Of a stretch of 64,000 nt of DNA, positions 48,179 to 63,455 are shown in pieces. This DNA is from Ruegeria sp. HKCCSA071 (lineage in GTDB: Bacteria > Pseudomonadota > Alphaproteobacteria > Rhodobacterales > Rhodobacteraceae): the NCBI RefSeq assembly GCF_017872555.1, contig NZ_JAEDOX010000008.1:1-64000 (forward strand), read 5' to 3'. The position numbers and the translations under genes are program-made. The notes under the pieces are model-generated. The model saw only the letters and a list, made by a program, of their open reading frames with translations. It did not search any database and was not told the DNA's origin. Within the stretch, counting starts at the first letter, position 1. Each line of letters starts with the position of its first letter.

Positions 48179-48194
48179 GTTTACAGTTGTAAAC
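48179..48194. promoter_or_regulatory. parS-like site 3 (upstream of repA)
   Basis: GTTTACAGTTGTAAAC differs from sites 1 and 2 by one central base. Its position upstream of the repA promoter suits repression by RepA/RepB. Confidence 0.75.
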
Positions 48195-48818
48195 TCGGTT
48201 GAGCGGGATCATGGATTCTTTCAGTCGATGAAGTTCTAACGTAGGCGTGCGAAGGCATTCCTGTAAAACTCCTCCCTATGCTCCGCTTTGAGTAGAACGC
48301 CTCTAGCATGGAGTTGGAGTGAAGGCCGAACGGCTTTTGGCGCAAATCGCGCAATTGGGAAGGGCAGGGAGCTAGTTGAGCTGATTGGTCAAATTCTCTC
48401 GCCAACAATTTCGTTATCAAGTTTTCTGCGATACCAACTTCGTAACAATACTTCTGCGCCAGTACGGGAGTACGATGCGGTGAGAATGGCATGGCGATCT
48501 GGGTCAGATACACCGAGCTCAGCCCGTGCGCAGAGGCAAAACACGCGAACATTCCGGCTAGAGTCAGCCGCTCGCCAATTGCCCAAGAAATGGCATACCG
48601 TGAGGGCGGGGTTTCGGGAATTGTGCGCCTATAAGTTGCGACGGAACAGGGAACTGTACTCGATCCAGTGCAGCTGTGCTTGCGCGGCGCGGCTTTTGGC
48701 GCAAGTCTCTACCGTCATTGGATTCATATGGGATCACAGACATGATCCGTGTGTTCACGTCCCATTAGCGTCTATAAAACCAGCTTGCTCGAATTAGTGA
48801 TTTTGGGCTCCTCAATCG
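48195..48818. other. Non-coding region upstream of repABC
   Basis: About 620 bp with no supported gene. It contains a 15-bp direct repeat CGGCTTTTGGCGCAA at 48331-48345 and 48690-48704. Short frames on both strands lack ribosome sites. Confidence 0.45.
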
Positions 48819-48868: not shown

Positions 48869-49126
48869 ATGGTAACCCGCAATGTTGTACTTACAGAATC
48901 GCAGGATCAACTGGTGCAGAATCTGGTTGCGTCCGGTCGATATCAGAACGCCAGTGAAGCGTTGCGCGCCGGCCTTCGGCTTTTGGAGCGGGAAGAAGCG
49001 GGGCTGGAGTCTCTCAAACAAGGCTTGCAGGAGGGTGTAGCGCAGGCTCAGGCCGGAGATTTGGCAGAAGGCAGCGGTTCGGATGCGATCCGTCGTGCCT
49101 TTGCAAGGGAACGATCCAAGGCGTGA
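48869..49126 (+). CDS. parD: ParD-family antitoxin
   Basis: Protein of 85 residues. The N-terminal ribbon-helix-helix is VTRNVVLTESQDQLVQNLVA followed by SGRYQNASEALRAGLRLLER, characteristic of ParD. The C-terminal acidic tail would wrap the toxin. ATG 48869 has TGGAGG eight bases upstream; ATG 48854 in frame is less well placed. It overlaps parE by four bases. With parE it should kill plasmid-free segregants. Confidence 0.9.
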   Translation: MVTRNVVLTESQDQLVQNLVASGRYQNASEALRAGLRLLEREEAGLESLKQGLQEGVAQAQAGDLAEGSGSDAIRRAFARERSKA

Positions 49127-49467
49127 CCAGACCCTTTCGACTGACACGCCGTGCTGAATCCAGCCTGGTGGAAATTGCCCGATGGACCATCGACAAGTTT
49201 GGATCGCATCAAGCCGATCTTTATGAACAAGAACTAATAGCGCGCTGTCAGGCCATCACAGAGGGCAGGGTGGCCAGCCGCAGTTGTTCTATATTGGTCG
49301 AAGAGGCGGCGGATCTCAGATATGTGCGCGCAGGAGAGCATTTCCTGGTTTATCTGGATCAGCCGGACGCGGTGATCATTGTTGATATCCTGCATTCCCG
49401 TTGTGATCTGCCGCGACATGTTTCCACGCTGGCCACGTTAACAGATGCTACAGGAAACAAGACATAG
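49123..49467 (+). CDS. parE: ParE-family toxin
   Basis: Protein of 114 residues starting at GTG 49123 inside the parD stop. FRLTRRAESSLVEIARWTID and the C-terminal half (LRYVRAGEHFLVYLDQPDAV, IIVDILHSRCDLPRHV) match the RelE/ParE fold, in which the last strand and the C-terminal Arg-containing segment contact gyrase. The frame is intact. It is placed next to the replication genes as a stabilisation module. Confidence 0.9.
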   Translation: MTRPFRLTRRAESSLVEIARWTIDKFGSHQADLYEQELIARCQAITEGRVASRSCSILVEEAADLRYVRAGEHFLVYLDQPDAVIIVDILHSRCDLPRHVSTLATLTDATGNKT

Positions 49468-49521: not shown

Positions 49522-50676
49522 TCACCCCAGTAGATCAGTCGCCGGGTTATCCGCGATGTCCACATCGTCGTAATATTTCTGCGCCTGCGCCATGGAGCGA
49601 TGCAAGGATAGGCGCATGGCGGCCTGGATCGGCGCACCGTCCAGCGCGGCTTGCGTCAGAAAGCCCGAGCGCAATCCATGCGGCGAGGCGAAATCCTCGG
49701 GCAATCCGGCCAGCCTGAGACGATGTTTGACAATCTGATAGATCGCATCCGGGGTCAGGCGGCGGTTCAACACCCGGTCAGCCTTGGAGATGGGGCGGAA
49801 CAATGGGCCACCCTCGATCCCGCCACCCTCGATCCAATGCATCAGCGCCTGCGCGGCGCGGCCTTTCAGGATCAGGCGCGGCGTCTCTCCCTTGGCCGTG
49901 GTCTTGGTTTCCAGCAGCGACAGCCAGGCGACGCCGGATGTGTCGAACTCCTTCAGCGACACGTCTTCGCGCATCAACCCGGTGATCTCGGACCGGCGGC
50001 GCCCGCCGCTGGCCCAGCCCAGCATCAGGATCGCCCGGTCGCGGCAATCCCGGCGCGAGCCCCGGCAGGTGGCCAGCAGCTGCTCCAGCACATCGCGGGT
50101 GATGGGATGGGCGGATTTCGGGGCCGGGGGCCGTGCGGCAGCACGTCTTGCCTTGGCGCGGGCCTGTTTCACCTGCGGCGCAACAAAGGGGCTGGCGAGG
50201 TTCTTCATCCGGTGGAAGGCCAGCCAGGACGCAATGCGCCGGTCCAGGGTCGACGGGGCCGGGCAGGCCAGCGATTTGCGTAGCCCCTGCGCAATCAGCA
50301 CCTCCGCGGTTTGACGCGCAATATCCTTATCGGGCGCATCACCCAGATCGCGCGCATGATCGAGGATGAAGGCCAGCGCCGTGGCCTCACTTTCGGGCCA
50401 GTCCAGCGCGGCGCTGAACCGGGCAGATTTCCATGCCGTGACATAGAGCAGGTCGCGCTCATAAGCCCGCAGCGTGTTGGCGGGGGTGCCGCGCACATAA
50501 AGGTCGGTCAGCGCCTCCTGATCTGCCTGCGACAGGGCAGGGGCGGTGGCTGGGAGGTATGGGGCAGGGGGCTTCATGGCTGTCGATTTTCCCAAACCTG
50601 TAGACTGCTCTTGCTTGTTTTGACCATTTTTCATGGTTGGCCTTGTGCTGTGCTGGTCCTTTAAGTGTAGACTCAC
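49522..50676 (-). CDS. Tyrosine recombinase/integrase
   Basis: Protein of 384 residues, or 370 if ATG 50634 is used. The N-terminal SAM-like domain (TPANTLRAYERDLLYVTAWK) precedes the catalytic domain: Arg in GWASGGRRRSEITGL, Lys in LETKTTAKGE, HGLRSGF for the His-x-x-Arg, His in RLSLHRSMA and Tyr in AQKYYDD. It is divergent from tniA with only about 58 bp between the starts. It might resolve transposition cointegrates or belong to a separate element. Confidence 0.9.
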   Translation of the reverse strand: MSLHLKDQHSTRPTMKNGQNKQEQSTGLGKSTAMKPPAPYLPATAPALSQADQEALTDLYVRGTPANTLRAYERDLLYVTAWKSARFSAALDWPESEATALAFILDHARDLGDAPDKDIARQTAEVLIAQGLRKSLACPAPSTLDRRIASWLAFHRMKNLASPFVAPQVKQARAKARRAAARPPAPKSAHPITRDVLEQLLATCRGSRRDCRDRAILMLGWASGGRRRSEITGLMREDVSLKEFDTSGVAWLSLLETKTTAKGETPRLILKGRAAQALMHWIEGGGIEGGPLFRPISKADRVLNRRLTPDAIYQIVKHRLRLAGLPEDFASPHGLRSGFLTQAALDGAPIQAAMRLSLHRSMAQAQKYYDDVDIADNPATDLLG

Positions 50677-50734
50677 ACTGGATTTGTGCCAATACTTGTT
50701 TACAAAATGGAAGATTTCAGCGCGGCGGAGACAA

Positions 50735-52354
50735 ATGGGTGGTGTTGAGGCGATTGACGAAGCCCGTTGGGCGGAGGCCGTGCGGCGTGAGCGGGAAATA
50801 CGCCCCCTGAGTCAGCGACGGGGCAACCGGGCCGAGGTTGCACGGGCGGCCCGGCGTCTGAACCTTTCCGTGGCCTGGGTGTACCGGTTGCTCAACAGGT
50901 ATTGCGAAGATCCTCGGACGGTGTCGCTGGTCCCCGCAAAAGGGGGTCGCCCAAAGGGACATCGTTTGCTCTCAGATGCGGTTGAGGTCATCATCTCCGA
51001 TCAGCTGGAAAGGTTTTATGCGTCGCGACAAAAGCCGATCCTGTCAGCCGTACACCGAGAGATTTCGAGGCTTTGCAAAGCGCAGGGTTTGAAGCCACCG
51101 AGTTTAAAGGCGGTCAGATCCCGTGCTTTACGCCTGAATCAGGTCAAACTGACGCGGGCACGGGAGGGGTATAGGGCTGCTCAGTCAAAGGTCGGACCGT
51201 CCAAGGGGTCTCTCCAAGCCACTATGCCCCTCAGTGTCGTGCAGATTGATCATACGCTTGTTGATGTCCAACTGGTCGATGACGTTCGGCGCAAACCGAT
51301 CGGCCGGCCCTGGCTGACGCTGGTACTGGATGTCGCCACCCGCATGGTATTGGGGTTTGTCGTCTCCCTGGACGCACCGTCCCGCCTGTCGGTCGCCCTG
51401 GCCATTGCACAGGCCGTCGGGGACAAGGCGGAGTGGCTGGCGGATCGCAATCTCGCACATATTTGGCCCTGTACAGGGCTTTTTGACACGATCAAGCTCG
51501 ACAATGCGGCAGAGTTTCGGGCTGTTGCACTGAAACGGGGGTGTGAACAATACGGTATGGCGCTGGATTTCCGCCCGCCGGGTGCGCCCTGGTGGGGTGG
51601 CCATATCGAGCGTTTGATGGGCACATTGATGACCGAATGCCATCTGTTGCCGGGCACGACGTTCTCCAACCCGGTCGAAAAGGGGGGGTATGACAGCGAA
51701 GCCCGGGCCGTCATGACGCGCGCTGAGCTGGAAACCTGGCTCGCCGGCCGGATCACCGGTGTCTACCACAACCGGGTACATACGGCGCTTGGACGCACGC
51801 CGTTGAGTGCCTGGAGAGCGGCCGAGGCTACAGGGTGGGTGCCCAGAACTCCAAAAGATCCGGACCGGTTGTTGCTCGATTTCCTGCCCTTCGCATACCG
51901 CACACCACGCCGCGACGGCCTGCAGCTGTTCAATATCGCCTATTGGCATCCGGAAATGGCGGTCTGGGCGGCGTCAAAGCCCGGCAAACTGCCGGTGCGC
52001 TATGATCCCCGGGATTTGTCCTGTGTCTGGCTTGAGACGCCGGAAGGGCGGTTGGAGCGGTTAACCACCAAACATGCGGATCGCCCACCAATCACCTTTT
52101 GGGAGCACCGGGCGGCCCTTGCTGCGTTGCGCGAGGCGGGGCAGGGGACGGCAAATGAGGCCGCTGTGTTCGACGCCATTGAAGCGGGCCGCCATCTGGT
52201 GGCGGCTGCCGCCGGGAAGAGCCGGGCGGCGCGGCGGGCTGAGCAACGCCGAGCCGATGCGCATGAGGGACTGAACGCACCAGAAACCGGTGCTGAAGCT
52301 GAGGTGCCAGACCCGGATTATGTACCAACAATCTACGATTCCGAACTCTGGTGA
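50735..52354 (+). CDS. tniA: Transposase TniA (Mu/TnsB-type DDE)
   Basis: Protein of 539 residues. N-terminal HTH region (RAEVARAARRLNLSVAWVYR), then the DDE integrase core: Asp172 in VQIDHTLVDV, Asp256 in IKLDNAAEF, Glu292 in GGHIERLMG, with 35 residues between the last two. The C-terminal Mu-C-like barrel (YDPRDLSCVWLETPEGRLER) follows. ATG 50735 has GGCGGAG upstream and was preferred over an open extension to 50633. TniA cuts and joins the transposon ends. Confidence 0.93.
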   Translation: MGGVEAIDEARWAEAVRREREIRPLSQRRGNRAEVARAARRLNLSVAWVYRLLNRYCEDPRTVSLVPAKGGRPKGHRLLSDAVEVIISDQLERFYASRQKPILSAVHREISRLCKAQGLKPPSLKAVRSRALRLNQVKLTRAREGYRAAQSKVGPSKGSLQATMPLSVVQIDHTLVDVQLVDDVRRKPIGRPWLTLVLDVATRMVLGFVVSLDAPSRLSVALAIAQAVGDKAEWLADRNLAHIWPCTGLFDTIKLDNAAEFRAVALKRGCEQYGMALDFRPPGAPWWGGHIERLMGTLMTECHLLPGTTFSNPVEKGGYDSEARAVMTRAELETWLAGRITGVYHNRVHTALGRTPLSAWRAAEATGWVPRTPKDPDRLLLDFLPFAYRTPRRDGLQLFNIAYWHPEMAVWAASKPGKLPVRYDPRDLSCVWLETPEGRLERLTTKHADRPPITFWEHRAALAALREAGQGTANEAAVFDAIEAGRHLVAAAAGKSRAARRAEQRRADAHEGLNAPETGAEAEVPDPDYVPTIYDSELW

Positions 52355-52358
52355 GGAC

Positions 52359-53234
52359 ATGAAAGCATCTTTCACGCATTTACCGCCCGCAATACGCCCG
52401 CTGGCGGCTCTGGGCGACGCGGAGCGCAGGCGGATTATCCGGTCTGATCGTTGGGTGAGCTACCCGCTGGCAATGCAGACGGTGCGGCGGGTCGAGGAGT
52501 TGCTGCAGCGGCCCAGGGTGTCACGAATGCGCTCGCTGTTGATCCATGGCCCGTCCGGCATGGGCAAAACCCTGATCCGGCGCAAACTGGAACGGGATCA
52601 TGCGGATGGATTCACGGTGCCGGGAAGCGACAGGCCGCGTCCGTTGGTGTCGATGCAACTGCCGGCTCGACCCGATGAGCGGCGGTTTTACGCACATCTT
52701 CTGGACCGGCTGGGCGCCCCTGCGCGCCCGCGGGACACGCTGGACCAGATCGAGATTGCCGCCATTCGGCTGTTGCGGCATCTGCAGCTGGCGGCGCTTC
52801 TGCTGGATGAGTTCCAGCATGTGGGGGCATCAGGGGTTCGGGATGTTCAGGCGCTGCTGAACCTGATCAAGTTTCTGGCCAACGAGCTTGAAATGCCCGT
52901 GATCGCCTTCGGCACCGATGCCTCCCTGCATGTTCTGAAGCTGGATACTCAAGTCGACAGCCGGTTTGACAAGCATGGCCTGCGGGTCTGGCGAGATAAT
53001 GAGGCATTTGCGGATCTGGTGTGCAGCATCGTGGCTGCAATGCCGTTGCGCGCCCCAAGCCCGGTGCAGGACAGGGCTGTGATGCGGGCGCTTGTGGCCC
53101 TGTCGGGGGGTATCACGGGGGATGTGTTTCATCTGCTGACGACGGCTGCGGCAACAGCCGTCGGGGGCGAAGAGCGTATCACGTTACAGGGCCTCGAAGC
53201 CGCTGCTGCGGGGGAATGGCAGGCCCTTGCCTGA
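52359..53234 (+). CDS. tniB: Transposition ATPase TniB
   Basis: AAA ATPase of 291 residues. Walker A is LIHGPSGMGKTLIRRKLERD and Walker B AALLLDEFQHVGASGVRD, with a sensor-like VIAFGTDASL. TniB/TnsC proteins choose target DNA and activate the transposase. It starts four bases after tniA. Confidence 0.92.
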   Translation: MKASFTHLPPAIRPLAALGDAERRRIIRSDRWVSYPLAMQTVRRVEELLQRPRVSRMRSLLIHGPSGMGKTLIRRKLERDHADGFTVPGSDRPRPLVSMQLPARPDERRFYAHLLDRLGAPARPRDTLDQIEIAAIRLLRHLQLAALLLDEFQHVGASGVRDVQALLNLIKFLANELEMPVIAFGTDASLHVLKLDTQVDSRFDKHGLRVWRDNEAFADLVCSIVAAMPLRAPSPVQDRAVMRALVALSGGITGDVFHLLTTAAATAVGGEERITLQGLEAAAAGEWQALA

Positions 53235-54285
53235 CAGATTGCCATTTGTTCCTACACCTCGGGCCGAAGAAAGCCTGTCGGGCTGGCTGGGTCAACTGGT
53301 GATGCTCTATTTTGGGACGGAACGGCGGATGTGGCGGGGGATGGGGCTGCAAAACGGCCCCACGGATAGTGATCGTCCCGATCACGCCCATCTGGAGGCG
53401 CTGGCTCGGTGCACTGGCATCGATGTTGCGCGGTTATCTGCGATGGTGTTGCCGTGGGTCGAGGCGGCGCCCAGGCTTGCGGATCGGCTTCAAGTCACAG
53501 CTGCTCCATGGAGGATCGGGCCGTTCCGGCTGTTTGATGGCACCCGGCGCTTTTGCCCCCTGTGCCTGGCCACGACCACGCCGCTATGGCCGCTGCATTG
53601 GCGCATGGGCGGTCCAGTATGCCTGACGCATCACGTGTGGCTTGAGCGGGGGTGCAGCCTATGTCAGGAGCCCCTGCCTGTGACCGGCCTGCCGCCAACC
53701 GGTTGTGCCTGCTGCGCCACGCCCTATCGCGCCACCCCGGTTGATCCGGTTGATCCCAGGGCAATGACGTGCCTGGCCTCGATCCATCGGCGTATCGTGA
53801 AGATCGTGTCGGACCCCGACCGGACACGGGTCCGGGCGATGACCGGGGCCTTGGATTGGGCCGCGCTGGGACAGTTGGCCGGACAATACGGACATCACCT
53901 CGCGGCAGGCACATCTATTCGAGACTGGCGGGCGGCCCTGGAAACCTGTGCAATCGCGGCCTCGGAACAAAACGTCATGCTGGCCGATATGCCGGTCTTG
54001 GCGGTACGCGAGGCGGTTCCGACCCAGGGCAGGGCCCCTGTCGCACCGGCAAACAGGGCCATGGTGCTTCCAAAGTTGCCGCGCGGGGTCTCTGTCGTCG
54101 ACGGGCTGAAAGAGCGCGTGGCGGAGGCACTTGCGCAAGCCCGCACAGATTTGTTGGCTCAAGGCCAACCGGTCACTGCAAAAGCGCTGCGGCGGCGGGC
54201 AGATCAGATTCTTCGGAAACAGGGTGTCGGGCAGGGCAGGGGTCTACGGGTTACGGAACAATTCCGTCACGAGTCCAGTGGTTAA
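53227..54285 (+). CDS. tniQ: Transposition targeting protein TniQ
   Basis: Protein of 352 residues, probably starting at TTG 53227 within the end of tniB. The N-terminal TniQ domain has EESLSGWLGQLVMLYF and the zinc-binding pattern RFCPLCLA, VCLTHHVWLERGCSLCQ, TGCACCATP. The rest is a helical C-terminal domain ending in a basic stretch. TniQ/TnsD proteins help choose insertion sites. Confidence 0.9.
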   Translation: MPDRLPFVPTPRAEESLSGWLGQLVMLYFGTERRMWRGMGLQNGPTDSDRPDHAHLEALARCTGIDVARLSAMVLPWVEAAPRLADRLQVTAAPWRIGPFRLFDGTRRFCPLCLATTTPLWPLHWRMGGPVCLTHHVWLERGCSLCQEPLPVTGLPPTGCACCATPYRATPVDPVDPRAMTCLASIHRRIVKIVSDPDRTRVRAMTGALDWAALGQLAGQYGHHLAAGTSIRDWRAALETCAIAASEQNVMLADMPVLAVREAVPTQGRAPVAPANRAMVLPKLPRGVSVVDGLKERVAEALAQARTDLLAQGQPVTAKALRRRADQILRKQGVGQGRGLRVTEQFRHESSG

Positions 54286-54389
54286 GGAAAAGCGACATCA
54301 TGAGGCACATTCTGCGCGCATTTTCCGGCGAAATCAATCAGTCATGATAAGGGATACTTATCGAGTGTAACTTGAAACTGATAGCGCAA

Positions 54390-54412
54390 CAAAAGTAACG
54401 AGCAAAAGTAAC
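54390..54412. repeat. Two direct CAAAAGTAAC repeats after tniQ
   Basis: CAAAAGTAAC at 54390-54399 and 54403-54412, 13 bp apart. Transposase-binding repeats are expected near Tni-type ends, but no matching copy was found near 49.5 kb. Confidence 0.35.
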
Positions 54413-54531
54413 AGATTTTGCGCGTAAAGTAGGTAGAGGGCTTGCGGAATAATAAAATCGGAGGTTCTGTCGCAGGTCTGTAAACCAATTGGCATCGACA
54501 TTGCGCTGGAACCGTTGGCAAACTAAATGAA

Positions 54532-55197
54532 ATGAACAGATATTTTGCCACTGAATTGCCTTTCTGGAAGTTTGCCAGAAACACGCTGATCGTCAGTTGC
54601 CTTGCGTTGTTTCCGCTGTTGGCCATCTTCGTTTTGCGCACGCCGGGCTTTGCGACGCACCTCCTGAACAGTGGTCCCGCGTTTGTTCGGTTTTTGCGTC
54701 AGGTGGTGACGAATGGGTTGCCGGTCGTTTTCCTTTTAAATTATCTCAGCTTTTTTCTTTTCGCCGTTGGGGTAAGGGCGCGGGGCAGGGGGGCCATCCC
54801 GGCCCGGTATCTGCTAATTGACCTGCTGCTACGGGCCGTCCTGTTCATCGCGCTGCACGCGCTGATCTACGCGCTTTCGGCAGACTGGTTCGGGTCTTTC
54901 GGCGGTGATCCCGTAGTGGCGTTGCGGGTAGTCGGTCCGACGCTGGTACGCTCCGCCTACTTCGAGAACATCTCAGGCGTTTACCTGTACGCCACGCTGG
55001 TCGGAGCGCTGCCGCTATACCTATCCGTCGTTCAGAGCCAGATCGCCCACGGTACTGGATTTGCAGCCCAACTGGCACGTCGCGTACCTGGGCGCGGCGG
55101 ACCTGTGACATTGGCCCTGCTACTGATGGCGGTGTCAGTGGTCGTTCTGACCACCGCGGCGGCGCTGATTGTCCGTTTACAGTCGGTTTGGGGCTGA
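54532..55197 (+). CDS. Integral membrane protein of unknown function
   Basis: Protein of 221 residues with about five hydrophobic segments, the last near the C-terminus (GGPVTLALLLMAVSVVVLTT). No family recognised and no strong ribosome site. It lies between the transposition genes and the copper-linked region and converges on the outer-membrane protein gene. Confidence 0.65.
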   Translation: MNRYFATELPFWKFARNTLIVSCLALFPLLAIFVLRTPGFATHLLNSGPAFVRFLRQVVTNGLPVVFLLNYLSFFLFAVGVRARGRGAIPARYLLIDLLLRAVLFIALHALIYALSADWFGSFGGDPVVALRVVGPTLVRSAYFENISGVYLYATLVGALPLYLSVVQSQIAHGTGFAAQLARRVPGRGGPVTLALLLMAVSVVVLTTAAALIVRLQSVWG

Positions 55198-55201
55198 AGG
55201 G

Positions 55202-56311
55202 TCAGAACGCCCTGCGTATCGCGAAGGAGACTGCGTAATCGCGTTCAAGCTGGGGCCCATCCAGATCTTGATACACAGGGATCACGCCCTCGATACCCAG
55301 GCGCGTGCCCGCCAAAACGCCCGACCCCGGCACAAGGTAATTCACTCCGATTCCGATACTCAGAAACTGGCCGCCGCGCAGGGTCGGATCAGCGGTGGGC
55401 ACCATGCCTGGGTTCAGGCGCGCATCCGACCCGTCAATGTTTTCCACGATGTCGCCGACCACCCGCAACGAGGAGCTGAACTGGTCATTCCAGCGCCGTG
55501 CACCCCAAACTGTTGCTGAATAGACGTCACCCAAGGTGTAACCGGCATCATTCTCACCCATCCGGATCACGGCGGCCAGCTGGGCGCCCCAAGACCAATC
55601 CGCGTTCTGGCCCGTATAGGTGACGCCCGGCAGCAGGTCGTAGGTGCCTGAACCCAGTTGCATGGGGTAGGGCAGCAGCTGGTCCGGCCCAGCTGGCGTG
55701 GTGTCGGTCTCGTCTATCGAGCCAGTCGGCAGACTGAGGCCAAGAGATAGTTCCAGCACCTGCCCGTCGGATTTGTAGATATCATATCCGCCGATGATCT
55801 TCAGATCGCCAAACCCCTGTGCCCTGGTCTTAAAGGTCTGGCCCATGCGGGTCTGGTGCTTCATCGTCTTGCGGGTATAGGGCAGCATCGCCATCACCGA
55901 GATCTCGTCGGTCACACCGTACATCAGGCCGACCATCGCCATGTTCATGCTCATGCTGAGCGGCGCGATCGGATACTGCGACAGAACGTTCGAGGTAGAC
56001 AGCGACTGCGTTCCGGTACGATTTCCGTCCATCTCCATGTTCATGTAAGAGAACACAGGCATCAAAACACCCTCGGGTGGATGCATACCGCCAACGACAC
56101 CCGTTGGCGGCACCGCGTCGGGGCGCATCATCCTGGACATGCTTCCCATACCTGACATGTTGCTGGAGGCTTGCGGGTTCATCGCCACGTTGTCAGCCGG
56201 ACGGGTTTCCGGTTGGGCCATGGCAGTTGACCCAAGGCTCAGCCCCCCAGCCAGTATTACAGCCTGGAGGCGTTGCCAGACGCACGTAATCTTGCTGTTG
56301 CTCCGTGTCAT
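55202..56311 (-). CDS. Met-rich outer-membrane protein (phenol-MetA-deg-like), copper linked
   Basis: Protein of 369 residues. A signal peptide (AVILAGGLSLGSTAMA) is followed by a methionine-rich stretch (NMSGMGSMSRMMRPDA, SYMNMEMDGN, SMSMNMAMVGLMYG). The body is a beta-rich barrel like PF13557 transporters and ends in AIRRAF with a terminal Phe. Met-rich segments often bind Cu(I). A CueR-type promoter lies 85-109 bp upstream on the same strand, supporting copper induction. It could sequester or export copper at the outer membrane; this is inferred. Confidence 0.8.
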   Translation of the reverse strand: MTRSNSKITCVWQRLQAVILAGGLSLGSTAMAQPETRPADNVAMNPQASSNMSGMGSMSRMMRPDAVPPTGVVGGMHPPEGVLMPVFSYMNMEMDGNRTGTQSLSTSNVLSQYPIAPLSMSMNMAMVGLMYGVTDEISVMAMLPYTRKTMKHQTRMGQTFKTRAQGFGDLKIIGGYDIYKSDGQVLELSLGLSLPTGSIDETDTTPAGPDQLLPYPMQLGSGTYDLLPGVTYTGQNADWSWGAQLAAVIRMGENDAGYTLGDVYSATVWGARRWNDQFSSSLRVVGDIVENIDGSDARLNPGMVPTADPTLRGGQFLSIGIGVNYLVPGSGVLAGTRLGIEGVIPVYQDLDGPQLERDYAVSFAIRRAF

Positions 56312-56395
56312 GATGCCCTCGTGTTCGTTTGTTTCCTGAGTCCCTGCCCTGAAAACAAAGTGTTCGGTACGTCCATCGGTGAAGTCGAAATGGTG

Positions 56396-56420
56396 GGGGT
56401 CTCCAGCGCTGGAAGGTCAA
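56396..56420 (-). promoter_or_regulatory. CueR-type operator/promoter 1
   Basis: On the minus strand TTGACC is followed by TTCCAGCGCTGGAGACC, with the dyad CCAGCGCTGG at 56403-56412. It matches the copper-responsive MerR/CueR box (ACCTTCC...GGAAGGT type) with a 19-20 bp spacer to a weak CACCATT -10. It drives the Met-rich outer-membrane protein. Confidence 0.75.
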
Positions 56421-56485
56421 GGCCGCCGGCCAGATTTGCGCTCGTCAAGCATGCATCAGCCGAAGGGGGTGCGGCAATAATGCGC

Positions 56486-56510
56486 TTGACCCTCCAGCGC
56501 TGGATTGTCG
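56486..56510 (+). promoter_or_regulatory. CueR-type operator/promoter 2
   Basis: TTGACC (56486-56491) followed by CTCCAGCGCTGGATTGTCG; dyad CCAGCGCTGG at 56494-56503. It reads toward ccmF, placing the transcript start about 25 bases before its ATG. The -10 is weak, as MerR-activated promoters can be. Confidence 0.72.
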
Positions 56511-56547
56511 GACAAGGCCGCAAAACCGGAAATCCGGAGGGATTGGA

Positions 56548-58542
56548 ATGATACCGGAAATCGGGCAGTTCGCCCTGGCGCTTGCCCTGGCCGTGTCCTT
56601 GGTGCAAAGCGTATTTCCCTTGATTGGAGCAGCACGGAACAATGTCATGTGGATGCGATCGGCATCTGCGACCTCGGTCCTACTGACAGCGCTGGTTGCT
56701 ATCGCCTTCGCCGCTCTGATGTGGTCCTTCGTGGTCAGCGATTTCACTGTGCTAAATGTGGCCAGCAATTCTCATTCGCTGAAACCGATGCTTTTCAAGG
56801 TGGCTGCGACCTGGGGTAGCCACGAAGGGTCGCTGCTGTTGTGGATTCTGATATTGGTGATTTTCGGGCTGGGTGTGTCTCTGTTGGCTCGGAACATCCC
56901 ACTGAAACTCAAGGCGCGCACTCTGGCAGTGCAGGCCTGGATCAGCGCGGGGTTCCTGTCATTCATGCTGTTCACCTCGAACCCGTTTGACCGGGTGTTT
57001 CCGGCACCGCTGGATGGTCAGGATTTAAATCCGCTGTTGCAGGATGTCGGCCTGGCTATGCACCCGCCGTTCCTATACCTGGGTTACGTCGGCTTCTCTA
57101 TCGTATTTTCTTTCGCCGTGGCTGCCCTGATTGAGGGGCGGGTCGATCCGGCATGGGCGCGGTGGGTCCGACCCTGGACATTGGCGGCCTGGGTGTTTCT
57201 GACACTTGGTATCGTTCTGGGCAGCTGGTGGGCCTATTACGAACTGGGTTGGGGCGGCTGGTGGTTCTGGGATCCGGTCGAGAATGTCTCGTTTATGCCC
57301 TGGCTTGCTGGCACAGCGCTGTTCCATTCGGCCATTGTGACCGAAAAGCGCGGCAGCTTCAAAAGTTGGACGATCCTACTGGCCGTTTTGACCTTCTCGT
57401 TGTCCTTGTTGGGGACATTCATTGTCCGCTCAGGCTTGCTTACATCGGTCCATGCGTTTTCGGTCGATCCCGAACGCGGCATTTACATCTTGGCGCTGTT
57501 GGCTGTCGCGATCGGTGGTTCATTGACGCTGTTTGCCATACGCGCACCGGAGATGGAGGGCGGCGGTCTTTTTGCCCCGATCAGCCGCGAGGCCGGTTTG
57601 CTTATTAACAACCTGCTGCTGGCCACCGCAACGGCGACGGTTCTATTCGGTACGCTTTATCCGCTTTTGCTTGAGGCTGTGACAGGTGAAAAGATTTCGG
57701 TTGGACCACCTTATTACAACGCCAGTTTCGTGCCGATCATGCTGGTTCTAGTCGTTGTAATGGGGATTGGGCCGCTGTTGTCATGGAAGCGGGCGGATTT
57801 GCGCGGTGTTCTGTCCCGGCTCAAATGGGTGGCCGGGGTTAGCCTGCTCGTAGCGTTGCTTGTGTGGTATCTGGATACCGGCGGCCCAGCCTTGGCGGTA
57901 GTGTCGATCGGCCTTGCGGTTTGGTTGCTGGGCGCTGTGCTGACAGAGTGGGCCAGCCGAATTAAGCTGGGTGAGGCACCGTTGGCCGAGTCCCTGCGTC
58001 GGGCCCGCAGCCTACCGCGTTCTCATTACGGCATGGTCGTGGCCCATGCGGGGTTGGCTGTCTGTATGATCGGCTTTATCGGGTCCAGCGCTTGGAAATC
58101 CGAGGTCGTGACTTTTGCCGAGCCCGGAACACAGATTGAGATAGCAGGGTTCGACGTGCGTTTTGACGGTGTGGAACAGCTTCGCGGTCCGAACTATCTG
58201 TCTCGCGCGGCCACACTGACGGTATTTCGCGATGGCGCTTATGTCACCACGCTTCAACCCGAGCGCAGGGCCTATCTCGTGGCGGGTACCAGTACGACCG
58301 AGTCAGCAATTCGAACGACGTTGGCAGGGGACCTTTACGCCTCAATATCGGAACCGGCGGCGGAATCAGAACAGAGCAAATGGACCCTGCGTATCTTGTA
58401 TGAGCCATTGGTGGTCTGGATCTGGATAGGTTCAGGATTGTTAGCATTTGGTGGTGTCTTGTCACTCTCCGATCGGCGTCTACGCGTCGGTGCACCACGA
58501 AAACGGACTGGGCAGAGCTCCGTTGCGGTGGCGGCGGAGTAG
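56548..58542 (+). CDS. ccmF: Cytochrome c haem lyase subunit CcmF
   Basis: Membrane protein of 664 residues with about 15 transmembrane helices, the usual CcmF length. The haem-handling WWD domain is clear: GWGGWWFWDPVENVSFMPWL. Conserved periplasmic histidines are present nearby (LFHSAIVTEKR, AMHPPFLYLGY, GSHEGSLLLW read as WGSHEGSLLLWI). CcmF and CcmH attach haem to apocytochrome c in the periplasm. GGAGG precedes the ATG. It leads a ccmFGHI operon behind a CueR-type promoter. ccmABCDE are not in the window. Confidence 0.95.
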   Translation: MIPEIGQFALALALAVSLVQSVFPLIGAARNNVMWMRSASATSVLLTALVAIAFAALMWSFVVSDFTVLNVASNSHSLKPMLFKVAATWGSHEGSLLLWILILVIFGLGVSLLARNIPLKLKARTLAVQAWISAGFLSFMLFTSNPFDRVFPAPLDGQDLNPLLQDVGLAMHPPFLYLGYVGFSIVFSFAVAALIEGRVDPAWARWVRPWTLAAWVFLTLGIVLGSWWAYYELGWGGWWFWDPVENVSFMPWLAGTALFHSAIVTEKRGSFKSWTILLAVLTFSLSLLGTFIVRSGLLTSVHAFSVDPERGIYILALLAVAIGGSLTLFAIRAPEMEGGGLFAPISREAGLLINNLLLATATATVLFGTLYPLLLEAVTGEKISVGPPYYNASFVPIMLVLVVVMGIGPLLSWKRADLRGVLSRLKWVAGVSLLVALLVWYLDTGGPALAVVSIGLAVWLLGAVLTEWASRIKLGEAPLAESLRRARSLPRSHYGMVVAHAGLAVCMIGFIGSSAWKSEVVTFAEPGTQIEIAGFDVRFDGVEQLRGPNYLSRAATLTVFRDGAYVTTLQPERRAYLVAGTSTTESAIRTTLAGDLYASISEPAAESEQSKWTLRILYEPLVVWIWIGSGLLAFGGVLSLSDRRLRVGAPRKRTGQSSVAVAAE

Positions 58543-58546
58543 GGCA

Positions 58547-59116
58547 ATGAAACGTCTATTTGCACTGTTCCCAATTACGATTGCCGGCATCCTGGGTGCC
58601 TTCCTGCTATGGGGACTGAATCCCGATCGCGATCCAAACGAAATCCCGTCTGTTTTGATCTCGCAGCCGGTGCCTGAGTTCGACTTGCCGCCGGTCGAAG
58701 GGCTGGATACCCACGGGCTGTCCAGTACCGATCTGGTGGAAAATGACGGGTCAGCTCCGATCGTGGTCAACGTGTTTGCGTCCTGGTGCGTGCCCTGCCG
58801 GGCCGAACATGCGGTGCTGACGCGTATGGTACGCGATGAGGGCATTCGCCTGATGGGCATTAACTACAAAGACAAGCCGCAGGACGCGCGGAAATGGCTC
58901 GACGATCTGGGCAACCCTTATGAGCGCATCGGTTCCGACCTGGACGGCCGAGCCGGGATCGAATGGGGGATTTCCGGCGTGCCGGAGACCTTTGTGATTG
59001 ATGGCGCGGGCAAGGTCGTATTCCGTTTTGTCGGCCCGGTGCTGGGCGACGAGGCAATTTCAAAGATGCGCACCGCGCTGGATCAGGCGCGGGCGGCCGG
59101 AGGAGAGGCGTCATGA
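58547..59116 (+). CDS. ccmG: Thiol:disulfide interchange protein CcmG/DsbE
   Basis: Protein of 189 residues with an N-terminal membrane anchor (FALFPITIAGILGAFLLWGL) and a periplasmic thioredoxin fold. The active site is FASWCVPCRAEH, and the cis-Pro segment is SGVPETFVIDGAG. It keeps the haem-binding cysteines of apocytochrome c reduced. It starts five bases after ccmF and overlaps ccmH by four. Confidence 0.94.
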   Translation: MKRLFALFPITIAGILGAFLLWGLNPDRDPNEIPSVLISQPVPEFDLPPVEGLDTHGLSSTDLVENDGSAPIVVNVFASWCVPCRAEHAVLTRMVRDEGIRLMGINYKDKPQDARKWLDDLGNPYERIGSDLDGRAGIEWGISGVPETFVIDGAGKVVFRFVGPVLGDEAISKMRTALDQARAAGGEAS

Positions 59117-59601
59117 TACGTCGCATTGTAATTACCGCGGTCACTCTGGCGATGCTGGTGTCGCAGCCGGCATTCGCGGTTGAGCCCGACGAGATACTTG
59201 CAGATCCGGTATTGGAAGAGCGGGCCCGGGCGATTTCGAAACAGGTGCGATGCGTGGTGTGCCAGAACCAAGACATCGACAGTTCTAACGCTGGCGTGGC
59301 GCGCGACCTTCGTCTGCTTGTGCGCGAACGGCTGGTGGCAGGCGACACGGACCAGCAGGTTATGGACTTTCTGGTTGCGCGTTATGGCGACTATGTTCTG
59401 TTCAACCCGCCATGGAAGCCATCAACTTACATTCTGTGGGTTGCGCCTATCGTCATCCTGGGGCTGGGTGGTATCGCGACTGCAGCGGTATTGACCCAAA
59501 ATGCGCGCCGATATCGGAAGTCGCGAAAACAAGAGACGGAACGCGGCGCGAGCGAAGAACGGAATCCCGAAAACCATTCACTCACGGAGCCGCACGCATG
59601 A
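59113..59601 (+). CDS. ccmH: Cytochrome c maturation protein CcmH
   Basis: Protein of 162 residues: signal peptide (TLAMLVSQPAFA), redox motif VRCVVCQNQDIDSSNAGVAR (RCxxCQ), a helical domain, and a C-terminal membrane helix (YILWVAPIVILGLGGIATAA). It handles apocytochrome thiols with CcmG and CcmF. It overlaps both neighbours by four bases. Confidence 0.94.
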   Translation: MIRRIVITAVTLAMLVSQPAFAVEPDEILADPVLEERARAISKQVRCVVCQNQDIDSSNAGVARDLRLLVRERLVAGDTDQQVMDFLVARYGDYVLFNPPWKPSTYILWVAPIVILGLGGIATAAVLTQNARRYRKSRKQETERGASEERNPENHSLTEPHA

Positions 59602-60746
59602 TCTGGATTATCTTTTCATTCATGGCCGTGGCGGTGTTTCTGACGCTCGCCCTCTCCGGCCTGGGGCGCAAGACCTCGGACTTGTCGAGACGCGAAAGCG
59701 CCTCTGCCATCTTTTCCGACCAGATCGGCGAAGTGGAGAAGGACCTGGAACGAGGAATTATCTCAGCCGAAGAGGCCAAGGCCGCCAGAGCCGAGATAGA
59801 ACGTCGCCTGAAGGCGATTGACCGGCAATCGGACGACAAAGCGATAATGGGCCATTCCGGGCGTGCGCTGATTTTACTTGCCGCGCTGGTAGTTCCAGCG
59901 CTCGGAGCCGGTCTTTATTGGCAACTGGGTAGTCCCTACATCCCCAGCCAGCCATTTGCCCAACGCGAGGGGGAGCAGGCCGAAGCCCGTGAAATCGCCG
60001 ACCTTGCCGTGCGCCTGAAGTCGCGGCTTGAGGCGGATGAAACCGGCGGGCCAACCGAGGGATGGGTGTTGTTGGCTCAGACCTATATGCGTATGGGACG
60101 CTTTGGAGATGCCGCAGACGCGTTCGAGGGGTTGCTGGACCGACCCAATGCGAATTCAGCGCTGGTGTCGCAATATGGCGAGGCGTTGGTCTATGCCGAT
60201 GACGGTGTCGTTACGCCCAAGGCCGATCGGGCGTTTGAACGAGCCTTGGAACTGGACCCATCGAACCCAGCAGCGACATTCTACAAAGCCATTGGTCTGG
60301 AGCAGGCTGGATCGCCTGATAAGGCCTATGACCTACTGAAGACGCGGATGGACGCCGAAGAGGAGTTCCGGCCATGGATGGAGAGTTTTGTGGCCCAGCT
60401 TAACCGCATCGCCCCGTCGATCGGACGGGCTCCGGTGAATCTGGCGGCTTTTGCCCCTTCCATGCCCGGCCCAACTGCCGATCAGGTGGCGGCGGCCGAG
60501 GAGATGTCAGACGAAGACCGGCAGGCCTTCATCCGCTCGATGGTCGAACGGCTTGCGAGCCGGATGCAGGAAAACCCAGGCGATCTGGACGGCTGGATGC
60601 GGCTGGGCAACGCCTATTCGGTGCTGGGCGAGACCGACGGCGCCCGGAACGCCTATGGCAGGGCAAGGGATCTGGCGGATGACCTGCCGCAGGGGGATCC
60701 GCGCAAGGTGGCAATCGACCGGGCATTGCTGGAACTGGGGGGTTGA
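59598..60746 (+). CDS. ccmI: Cytochrome c biogenesis protein CcmI (TPR)
   Basis: Protein of 382 residues. The N-terminal membrane segment (IWIIFSFMAVAVFLTLALSG) is followed by the CcmI helical region (FSDQIGEVEKDLERGIISAE) and a second helix (ALILLAALVVPALGAGLYWQ). The periplasmic part has TPR repeats (GWVLLAQTYMRMGRFGDAAD, LDGWMRLGNAYSVLGETDGA). It chaperones apocytochrome c to the CcmFH ligase. ATG 59598 overlaps the ccmH stop. Confidence 0.93.
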   Translation: MIWIIFSFMAVAVFLTLALSGLGRKTSDLSRRESASAIFSDQIGEVEKDLERGIISAEEAKAARAEIERRLKAIDRQSDDKAIMGHSGRALILLAALVVPALGAGLYWQLGSPYIPSQPFAQREGEQAEAREIADLAVRLKSRLEADETGGPTEGWVLLAQTYMRMGRFGDAADAFEGLLDRPNANSALVSQYGEALVYADDGVVTPKADRAFERALELDPSNPAATFYKAIGLEQAGSPDKAYDLLKTRMDAEEEFRPWMESFVAQLNRIAPSIGRAPVNLAAFAPSMPGPTADQVAAAEEMSDEDRQAFIRSMVERLASRMQENPGDLDGWMRLGNAYSVLGETDGARNAYGRARDLADDLPQGDPRKVAIDRALLELGG

Positions 60747-60860
60747 TTCCCGCAGCCCGGCGTGGATCGGGCCGGCGCCGACTTCGCGCTGATGCCCAGT
60801 GAGCCATCTGGAAAATTCCGGTTTAGGCTATCGCATGCCGATCTTTAGGAGGTTGAGACC

Positions 60861-61319
60861 ATGAAAGTTGAAACGTTTTCTGATCTAATTGTCTGGACGC
60901 GGGAAATGCATCATTGGCTCGCCGAATGTTTGGCCCACTGTTCGACACAGTCAGAGCAGGAGCTGGCCAGGATGTTGCTTACCTACCTCGCCGATCATGA
61001 GGCTGCTCTGGAGAAAATCGTCGATGGTTTCGTGAAACGAGCCGATCCCAAAGCGCTCAACACCTGGGTATATGACTATTTGGGCAATGAGCCGATCGAC
61101 CCACATCGCGCCTGCGACAGGCCGTTCGCACAGATGAGCGTCGATGAGATCTGCGAAGCGGTCTTCGATCTTCACAATCAGGTGATCGACTTATATCGGT
61201 ATTTGCACGGGCGTGCCGAGATACCCGAGGCACGCGAACTCTTTCAGGCGATACTGGATATGGAAGAGCACGAGACCATGCGTTTAGCGCAGCAGAGCAA
61301 CCGCGTCCGGGATATGTGA
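60861..61319 (+). CDS. Ferritin-like helical protein (tentative)
   Basis: Protein of 152 residues, predicted four-helix bundle. Metal-ligand-like residues recur at helix positions: TYLADHEAALEKIV, AVFDLHNQVIDLYRYLH and ILDMEEHETMRLAQQ, the last an ExxH-like pattern. AGGAGG precedes the ATG. It follows ccmI by 114 bp and converges on the ScsB-like gene. Family membership is a guess from pattern; it may handle metal or sense it. Confidence 0.6.
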   Translation: MKVETFSDLIVWTREMHHWLAECLAHCSTQSEQELARMLLTYLADHEAALEKIVDGFVKRADPKALNTWVYDYLGNEPIDPHRACDRPFAQMSVDEICEAVFDLHNQVIDLYRYLHGRAEIPEARELFQAILDMEEHETMRLAQQSNRVRDM

Positions 61320-61328
61320 ACTCCGGGG

Positions 61329-63455
61329 TCAGGATCCGCTTTCCACGGCTCCGCCCGCAATCGGCGCGGCCTGTTCCATCGCGTCGAGAATGGCGTTCGT
61401 GGTCAAGATCTCTGGCAGGGCGATGCCTTCGGGGGCCGACGGGCCGTAGACGATGTTGAAGGGGATCCCGAACCGTCCATTGTCCTCAAGGAAACGGGCG
61501 ATCACATCGTCGGGGCGGGTCCAGTCGGCCTGCATCGGAATTGCTTTGTCCGATTGCAGTGTTGCCAGAACCTCGCCGCGTTCCAGCACCAGCGCTTTGT
61601 TGGCCTTGCAGGTCAGACACCAGTCGGCTGTGACATCGACGAAAACCACCTCGCCGCGCGACACAAGGCGGGCGATTTCGGGGCGGCTGAAGGTAATCCA
61701 AGGGATCTCTCCGGCTGGTTCAAGCAGCCTGGACCGGTCTTTGCCGGCAATCGCAACCGGTGCGGCAAACGCTGCGGTCAGCGTCAGCAACAGGGCTGTC
61801 CAGCGCAAAACGGGTGGCATCATCGTACTTTTCCAGATCAACAGGACCAGAACAGTTGCAGCCAGCACGGTAGCAGTTGCAGCAGTGTCTCCGGCCACCC
61901 CGACCATCACCCAGACCAACCAGCCGATCGTGGTCAGCAGTGCCGCCGACAGGGCCCATTTTAATCCCACCATCCAACGCCCCGGTTTAGGCAGAGCGGC
62001 GGTAAGTTTCGGGTGCACTGCAACCAGCAGGTAAGGAATGGCCAGCCCGACCCCCATTGCGGTGAAGATCGCCACGATATCCACCGGTCGGCCGGTCAGG
62101 GCAAAGGCCACCGCCGTGCCGAGGAAGGGGGCCGAGCAGGGCGTCGCCAGAACTGCTGAGAAGGCTCCGGTCAGGAAATCCCCGACCAGCGACACGCGGC
62201 CCTTTTCGACATGGGCAAGCCGGGTGTTCAGCGACTGCGGCAGCGTGATCTCGAACAAGCCCGCGAGGCTGGTTGCAAAAACCGCCAGCACCACGATCAT
62301 CACCGCAAGGAAAAGCGGATTCTGGAACTGGATGCCCCAGCCGACGGAATAGCCCAGCGACCGCGCCGCAATGGTGATAGCCGCCAACAGCCACATGAAT
62401 GTCAGGATTCCGGCTGCCGAAGCCAGGAACCCGGCGCGAATCTGAGCCGCAGAGCGGTCGCGAGCCTTTACCGCCGAGGAAAGCTTGATCGAAAGCACTG
62501 GCAGTACGCAGGGCATGACATTCAGAATCAACCCGCCGCCCACCGCCAGCAAAATGATCCAGACCAGCGCGCTGGCTGAAGTTTCGGCGGCCGCGATCTC
62601 ATATGGTGGCGGGGTAGGGGGAGCGTCGGTACGGGGCGAAAACTCGGCCACGCGGTTGGTGTCGGTAACCGTGACGGACAAGGCGGGGGGGTCCTGTGCC
62701 AGAGCGAGGACCGGGAACTGCACCCATAGCTGACGCCTGTCGCCAGCGAGCCGGATGTCGGGTGCACCAAACGCGGTGTCACGTCCCATGTCGGGAAAGA
62801 CATCAGGCGCATCAAAGGGCAGGTCGCTGGTGAAATTCAGCGTCAGCATCTCGGACTCGGTATCCAGGGTCGCGGCGTCGGACTTCATTCCGCTTGTGTT
62901 TCCCGTGGTTGGCACCCGCGACAGAAAGGCATTTATAAGCCGGGCCGAGTCCTGATCCCGACCCGTTCCCTGAGTCAGCGACAAGTCCAGCGAAAACTCG
63001 ACCGGCACACAGATATCGGAACAGATCAGCGTTGTCACAGCGGCCTTCAAGTCAACTGGCGCTCCGGGGTTCTCGAGTGTGACGGTCAGCGGAAAGACCA
63101 CTTCGTCCTTGTACCCGAAATTCTCGATCCCGAAGGCGCGAAAACGGATCGGCGCGGGCCAGTGAAACTGTACGTCGCTGACGTTTTGCGAGCCGTTCCA
63201 AGTGATCTTGGGCGGAATTCCCACCTCACCAGGCGACTTCCAGTAGGTTTTCCAATCTTCGCCCAGTTTCAGATGCAGTCCTGCAGTGATCGTCTTGACG
63301 TCAGGCGCGATCCCGTCCTGCGCGGTAATTATGTGTGCGACCAGGGGCTCTGATTCATACGCTTGGGATGTAGCTGCAAGGCTTGTCCCGGCGGAAGTCT
63401 GGCCAAAGATTAACCCCAAGATCATAATACATAAATTTAGGAGTGTTCTTGCCAT
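61329..63455 (-). CDS. ScsB/DsbD-like protein-disulfide reductase (copper linked)
   Basis: Protein of 708 residues. Signal peptide; periplasmic N-terminal domain with a cysteine pair (TLICSDICVPVEF); an eight-helix DsbD-like core with VMPCVLPVLSIKL and ATPCSAPFLGTAV; and a C-terminal thioredoxin domain with VDVTADWCLTCKANK. The layout matches ScsB, the transmembrane reductase linked to copper tolerance. ATG 63455 is used because the CueR-type promoter at 63492-63516 would start the transcript around 63480, after the upstream ATG 63482. It probably powers periplasmic thiol repair and CcmG during copper stress. Confidence 0.88.
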   Translation of the reverse strand: MARTLLNLCIMILGLIFGQTSAGTSLAATSQAYESEPLVAHIITAQDGIAPDVKTITAGLHLKLGEDWKTYWKSPGEVGIPPKITWNGSQNVSDVQFHWPAPIRFRAFGIENFGYKDEVVFPLTVTLENPGAPVDLKAAVTTLICSDICVPVEFSLDLSLTQGTGRDQDSARLINAFLSRVPTTGNTSGMKSDAATLDTESEMLTLNFTSDLPFDAPDVFPDMGRDTAFGAPDIRLAGDRRQLWVQFPVLALAQDPPALSVTVTDTNRVAEFSPRTDAPPTPPPYEIAAAETSASALVWIILLAVGGGLILNVMPCVLPVLSIKLSSAVKARDRSAAQIRAGFLASAAGILTFMWLLAAITIAARSLGYSVGWGIQFQNPLFLAVMIVVLAVFATSLAGLFEITLPQSLNTRLAHVEKGRVSLVGDFLTGAFSAVLATPCSAPFLGTAVAFALTGRPVDIVAIFTAMGVGLAIPYLLVAVHPKLTAALPKPGRWMVGLKWALSAALLTTIGWLVWVMVGVAGDTAATATVLAATVLVLLIWKSTMMPPVLRWTALLLTLTAAFAAPVAIAGKDRSRLLEPAGEIPWITFSRPEIARLVSRGEVVFVDVTADWCLTCKANKALVLERGEVLATLQSDKAIPMQADWTRPDDVIARFLEDNGRFGIPFNIVYGPSAPEGIALPEILTTNAILDAMEQAAPIAGGAVESGS

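Follow-up and report, generated by a model that had tools for sequence, protein, structure and literature searches.

Does the tyrosine recombinase gene that lies divergently beside a set of tniA, tniB and tniQ genes in Ruegeria sp. HKCCSA071 belong to the transposon, or does it mark the place at which the transposon inserts? We analysed a 64,000-nucleotide stretch (positions 1 to 64,000 of contig NZ_JAEDOX010000008.1, hereafter the window) of a plasmid contig of 147,494 bp. The comparisons described below suggest that these genes form a minimal TnsA-less Tn7/Tn5053-like tniABQ transposon, which likely targets the core of plasmid Xer-like tyrosine recombinases (TRs) and would have its cointegrates resolved by the plasmid TR. 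The features that carry this argument are as follows.

49522-50577, minus strand: TR of 351 amino acids (Pfam Phage_integrase, 2e-13), assigned to the plasmid backbone, outside the transposon.
50581-54297, plus strand: tniABQ transposon of 3717 bp, found by inverted-repeat search, with the ends TGTCGATTTTCC...GGAAAAGCGACA, no cargo and no tniR.
50735-52354, plus strand: tniA, DDE-type transposase (Mu-transpos_C, 7.9e-11).
52359-53234, plus strand: tniB, AAA+ ATPase (Pfam TniB, 5.6e-51).
53227-54285, plus strand: tniQ, with an uncertain start codon (Pfam TniQ, 1e-13).
54345-54363, minus strand: core palindrome CGATAAGTATCCCTTATCA, a putative TR recombination site.

The initial annotation had read three intact transposition genes and a divergent tyrosine recombinase from the sequence, and the profile matches bear this out: tniA, tniB and tniQ are all intact (50735-54285), with TR and tniA oriented divergently. 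Among solved sequences, the closest to TniA is TnsB of Tn6677 (E 1.2e-40) and the closest to the Xer-like TR is XerD (1a0p). The control gap between TR and tniA, given earlier as about 58 bp, measures about 157 bp when the supported starts are used (TR 50577, tniA 50735), and the THAF33 annotation has a similar gap. The window TniA is present in one copy in its own genome. A profile scan for serine recombinases found none in the entire 64-kb window, so that no tniR lies within the element or just past its ends; the annotation had likewise seen no tniR.

Terminal repeats, which had been named as a check, are present at 50581 and 54297. The element termini read TGTCG...CGACA, tniA, tniB and tniQ are the only genes between them, and the inverted repeats are imperfect (TGTCGATTTTCCCAAACC / TGTCGCTTTTCCTTAACC; Tn5053/Tn402 have repeats of about 25 bp). 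The window element is placed between TR and the core, with its tniQ end 49 bp from the core. Stretches fetched from five Ruegeria plasmids (L003-L007) carry a TR of this family but no tniABQ, and in all five TR is preceded by variant forms of the 17-bp core GATAAGTATCCCTTATC, which lies at 54346-54362 in the window. L005 represents the empty form of the region, with a hypothetical gene, the core, TR, parE and parD in order and no tniABQ. Since the mapped ends exclude TR and the empty sites carry it, TR is, as judged from these sequences, a component of the plasmid backbone and not of the transposon. Outward from the core, the window (54345-62227) is 99.98% identical to L005, whereas identity on the TR side is 83%, and the two sequences diverge 1 bp past the 17-bp core. 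This switch of identity at the core points to the palindrome as a natural exchange point.

How regularly does the core accompany a TR? The window-type core pattern was found in 38 of the 54 genomes of the genus, with no match for the reversed control, and of the 30 loci returned, 23 have a TR start no more than 400 bp away. The remaining seven have tniQ at the core (L145, L160, L161), an early end (L146, L166) or neither (L141, L159). A second, repABC-type core, TGTCCRATAAN7TTATYGGACR, was matched at 65 sites, which are spread over 49 of 295 genomes, while the reversed control had no match. At 45 of these sites a TR is no more than 150 bp away, and at 54 DUF1403 is within 160 bp; both are present on opposite sides at 41, and four have tni genes at the site. 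Window-type and repABC-type TRs share 27-32% identity. Since the core is regularly found beside TR, we regard it as part of the TR module, with the element entering between TR and core. On one side of the repABC-type core is the TR gene and on the other a divergent DUF1403 gene, often at 78 bp, with an ScpB-like gene after it (L056:864-3619, L057, L058 and L059; 54 of 65 sites); this set is possibly a plasmid resolution and segregation module.

The recombinase-tniABQ order, for which a search elsewhere had been suggested, does recur, because the site of the recombinase is the target. TniA was searched in the 54 genus and 295 family genomes and in a plasmid collection, and 40 stretches, a subset of all matches, were fetched; from the plasmid records, the best place was taken in each of 12 whose TniA shares at least 80% identity with the L035 protein. 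We distinguish clade W (the window, THAF33 (L029) and G013 (L028)), clade A (ends like L035) and clade B (ends like L040). Between the right (tniQ) end and the core there are 49 bp in the window and 46 and 47 bp in the other two clade-W copies (3/3), 34 bp in ten and 37 or 38 bp in two of the 12 readable clade-A copies, and 49-53 bp in all six readable clade-B copies. Pooled, the core stands 34-53 bp from the right end in 21 of 21 fetched copies with a readable tniQ-side flank. Not counted as readable were L034 and L134 in clade A, in which a B element starts inside the right end, and L030, L039 and L134 in clade B, in which the right end or flank falls outside the stretch. The core search returned extra clade-W right ends in G037, at 47 bp, and as a remnant in G012, at 51 bp. 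In other tniABQ clades, the 130 bp beyond the right end contain no core in any of the 19 mapped copies with a right flank, and the left end is likewise free of cores in all 20 copies, of which one has a left flank of a single bp; the background is about 0.003-0.009 cores per 130 bp. The orientation is the same, with the tniA end toward the recombinase gene and the tniQ end toward the core, and a divergent TR open frame lies beside the element in nine of the 12 clade-A plasmid records. In the TniA tree, the core-associated rows, three of them without a readable right flank, cluster (3 changes against 16 expected), which need not mean a single origin of the core-associated clades. L034 lies on a 3.1-Mb contig, so that the carriers may include replicons other than plasmids.

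L018 was set aside as a further example, and L028 as a simple further one. In L018, TR and core are intact and the element lies about 0.83 kb away. In L028 the right end is at the core, but Tn3-like genes split the element from TR; here (L028:10741-16284) a 1012-amino-acid frame resembling a Tn3-type transposase and a small TR lie between the clade-W element and TR, and an older element remnant is found at TR. Tandem tniABQ elements at one core were also seen (L034:8129-15628, L134 and L040:1-3763), with clade B beginning inside the clade-A right end.

Three short features of the window concern the flanks of the element.

50576-50580, plus strand: left-end flank ATGGC on the TR side, overlapping the TR start codon.
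54298-54302, plus strand: right-end flank TCATG, which differs from the left flank.
54298-54346, minus strand: 49-bp leader from the right end to the core, identical at 49/49 positions to the corresponding leader on contig C2 of this genome, where the TR locus is empty.

The 5-bp target duplication that had been proposed as a check was not found in the window, where left ATGGC and right TCATG do not match. A duplication of TCATG with two extra bases was considered and rejected, as the comparison with contig C2 indicates a swapped right flank. The same leader occurs in G024, and the best non-identical leader among the loci compared matches the window at 43/49 positions; contig C2 itself ends about 110 bp into its TR gene. 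In three of five same-strain or same-genome copy pairs, the 28 bp that separate the element from the core are the same in both copies, and the sequences past the core differ. These pairs (L049/L048, L131/L132 and L133/L054) have the right flank in common for 54, 57 and 58 bp, through the core end, beyond which identity drops to about 61%, and their left flanks are unrelated. Among core-clade copies with both flanks, matched 5-bp duplications are present in L049 (ACCCA), L131 (TCGTC) and L133 (CTGAC), while L048, L132 and L054 combine a left flank of their own with exactly the right flank of the partner. Possession of the partner's right flank through the core is predicted for the recipient of a replicative cointegrate resolved core by core. 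We infer that core-by-core exchange by the plasmid TR, in the course of cointegrate resolution, accounts for the swapped flanks. We also considered for these flanks, and set aside, a cryptic long unit that would end at the outer arm of the core: L048, L054 and L132 each have a single core, not two, and it lies 78 bp from DUF1403 as usual. In a clade that is not at cores, the 5-bp sequence GCACC forms the left flank of L017 and the right flank of L018 (contigs C2 and C4 of G307), a pattern that would fit a cointegrate exchanged between replicons.

In the mechanism that we propose, the element would insert at a set distance from the TR core, in one orientation, between the core and the TR gene. 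Presumed replicative transposition into the TR locus of another plasmid would generate a cointegrate with two core sites beside two transposon copies. The plasmid's own TR would then resolve this cointegrate by core-by-core exchange, which would swap the short stretch between element and core. TR bound to its core, rather than core DNA alone, would be the mark that is sensed. The initial suggestion that TR provides a variant strategy of cointegrate resolution thereby gains support in a borrowed form, from the set distance and the core-exchanged flanks, but TR is not the transposon's own enzyme.

Several observations weigh against this mechanism. No TR lies beside the element in three of the 12 clade-A plasmid records (L050, L134 and L136), and 20 of the 65 repABC-type cores have no TR within 150 bp, four holding tni genes and some lying at contig ends. 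L055/L135, from the same strain, and L040/L041, from the same genome, have no common right flank; the strain of L055 and L135 has a third copy, outside the fetched set. L055 and L135 were themselves added because they were also in the TR search list, and the clades were labelled core-associated post hoc, after inspection. Only one of the two expected exchange products is seen per case, the other being lost or unsampled. Matched 5-bp duplications are found in none of the 18 other-clade copies with both flanks; since duplications are also missing in these clades, we count the shared stretch alone as evidence and not the loss of duplications.

The conserved core, in addition, allows the exchange point to be resolved only to its 27 bp, and this bears on an alternative in which TniABQ reads the core DNA itself, TR is uninvolved, and the swapped stretch arose by RecA recombination within the conserved core. 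Such direct DNA recognition is equally compatible with the fixed distance, and an exchange point that cannot be placed more finely than the core suits it as well. On the other hand, the shared stretch is only 54-58 bp long, the exchange falls within the 27-bp core in the three sharing pairs and at the core in the window, and known relatives exploit the resolvase of the target, as described in PMC7765201. We therefore consider this explanation unlikely and prefer the targeting of TR cores with resolution by the plasmid TR.

Much less room is left for TR as a transposon component, that is, as the element's own resolvase in place of tniR. The divergent TR-tniA order does recur, and tyrosine resolvases are listed for some Tn7-like clades without tnsA in PMC8649781. 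However, the mapped ends leave TR outside, TR loci are commonly found without tniABQ, and three copy pairs from different plasmids of one strain are 100, 100 and 99.97% identical while the adjoining TRs are only 76-80% alike. A TR gene belonging to the transposon is refuted for these copies by the empty sites and mapped ends, and the explanation as a whole is very improbable. Over all clade-A copies, the adjoining TRs are 75-90% alike. The window and THAF33 copies are 92.2% alike, with a TR side that is 99.91% identical over 1080 bp and left ends offset by 1 bp; divergent copies with such an offset point to separate insertions or replacement. The weakest explanation, that one or a few old insertions beside TR were inherited with the plasmids and no targeting occurred, can draw on clade-A TRs being one repABC-linked family and on the window and THAF33 plasmids being one lineage, but it is hardly credible, as it is contradicted by the near-identical pairs beside dissimilar TRs, by the divergent window and THAF33 copies 1 bp apart beside a near-identical TR side, and by the involvement of two TR families and three TniA clades.

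The remaining features of the window belong to the element's left end and to the plasmid backbone.

44646-48031, minus strand: repA, repB and repC of the plasmid (RepC; RepA- and RepB-type proteins).
48872-49467, plus strand: parD and parE, plasmid backbone (profile matches to ParD and ParE).
50595-50675, plus strand: subterminal repeats ending in TGTAGACT, with TAGACT at 50601 and 50668.
54390-54399 and 54403-54412, plus strand: two CAAAAGTAAC repeats, in the plasmid backbone past the core.

The subterminal repeats are possible candidates for TniA-binding sites. The CAAAAGTAAC repeats do follow tniQ as initially noted, but they lie outside the element and are also present in the empty plasmid L005, which rules them out as transposon end repeats. 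The location beside parDE and near repABC was read correctly, with both sets of genes beside TR on the host contig. A second TR remnant is found between parD and repA (window 48184-48708, minus strand; profile E 4.6e-17), and likewise at L002:12121-12492 and L006:9806-10351. Among related loci, five Hyphomicrobiales plasmids with a related TniA (L060-L064), left out of the counts as their element ends are unmapped, have DUF1403-ScpB downstream (5/5); an upstream TR is present in L061-L064, accompanied by VapBC in L062 and L063, and no TR was found upstream in L060. A palindrome upstream of DUF1403 was found in L062 and L064 and not in L060, L061 or L063. In the Ancylobacter plasmid L064 (9796-10728), a serine recombinase gene follows tniQ and may be the element's own tniR. 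In another clade, L009 (7107-10266) has a divergent serine recombinase at a distance of about 0.6 kb from tniA, an arrangement like that of classical res hunting.

According to PMC7765201 and the review PMC11406308, Tn5053/Tn402 prefer res sites for insertion and are helped there by the target resolvase; they insert in one orientation and with 5-bp repeats, and the target resolvase also aids resolution. The window element and its relatives resemble this system (PMC7765201) in having tniABQ, in one-orientation insertion at a preferred place beside a plasmid resolution system and, as we infer here, in the aid of the target's recombinase to resolution. They differ in that the window element has no tniR (a res without tniR was not searched for) and in that the target, in the window and 20 related copies, is a tyrosine-recombinase core and not a serine-resolvase res. 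The orientation is also reversed relative to that described for Tn5053: the tniA end is nearest the recombinase gene here, while in Tn5053, where the tniA end is IRt, the nearest end is IRo. Benler et al. (2021; PMC8649781) take tyrosine recombinases near tnsA-less Tn7-like elements (clades 2 and 3) as transposon parts; these clades share with the present case the linkage of tnsB/tniA-type elements to a tyrosine recombinase, but here the recombinase lies outside the transposon ends. Faure et al. (PMC10293859) describe an inactive tyrosine-recombinase domain, TnsF, that is encoded by a Tn6022-like transposon and guides it to comM. A tyrosine-recombinase fold is tied to target choice in both cases, whereas here a full-length, plasmid-encoded TR would mark the target and no TnsF or tnsA gene lies inside the ends. 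Like Xer/dif-type plasmid multimer resolution, the locus has an Xer-like TR beside a palindromic core with two arms and a 7-bp spacer; unlike it, the core precedes the TR gene to which it belongs, and in the repABC type it faces DUF1403 and ScpB-like genes. The literature searched, which covered few subscription papers, contained no account of tni elements located at the cores of tyrosine recombinases.

By analogy, tniABQ at tyrosine-recombinase sites resembles the res-site hunting of Tn5053/Tn402 with a different target, res-site hunting being described for serine resolvases in the papers cited here. It is fairly probable, from the comparison of these loci, that a resolvase-less tniABQ lineage of alphaproteobacterial plasmids measures its distance from a core-bound TR, enters between the core and the TR gene and depends wholly on the dimer-resolution enzyme of the plasmid for its cointegrates, and that each jump swaps a short stretch that records donor and recipient. 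Surveys of such elements should allow for a recombinase beside tniABQ being the target instead of a transposon gene. The sequence that separates the element from the core may serve as a natural assay that records the plasmid from which an element came. If the proposed targeting is true, transposons are able to recognise two unrelated classes of resolution complex, which would explain the persistence of elements without a resolvase.

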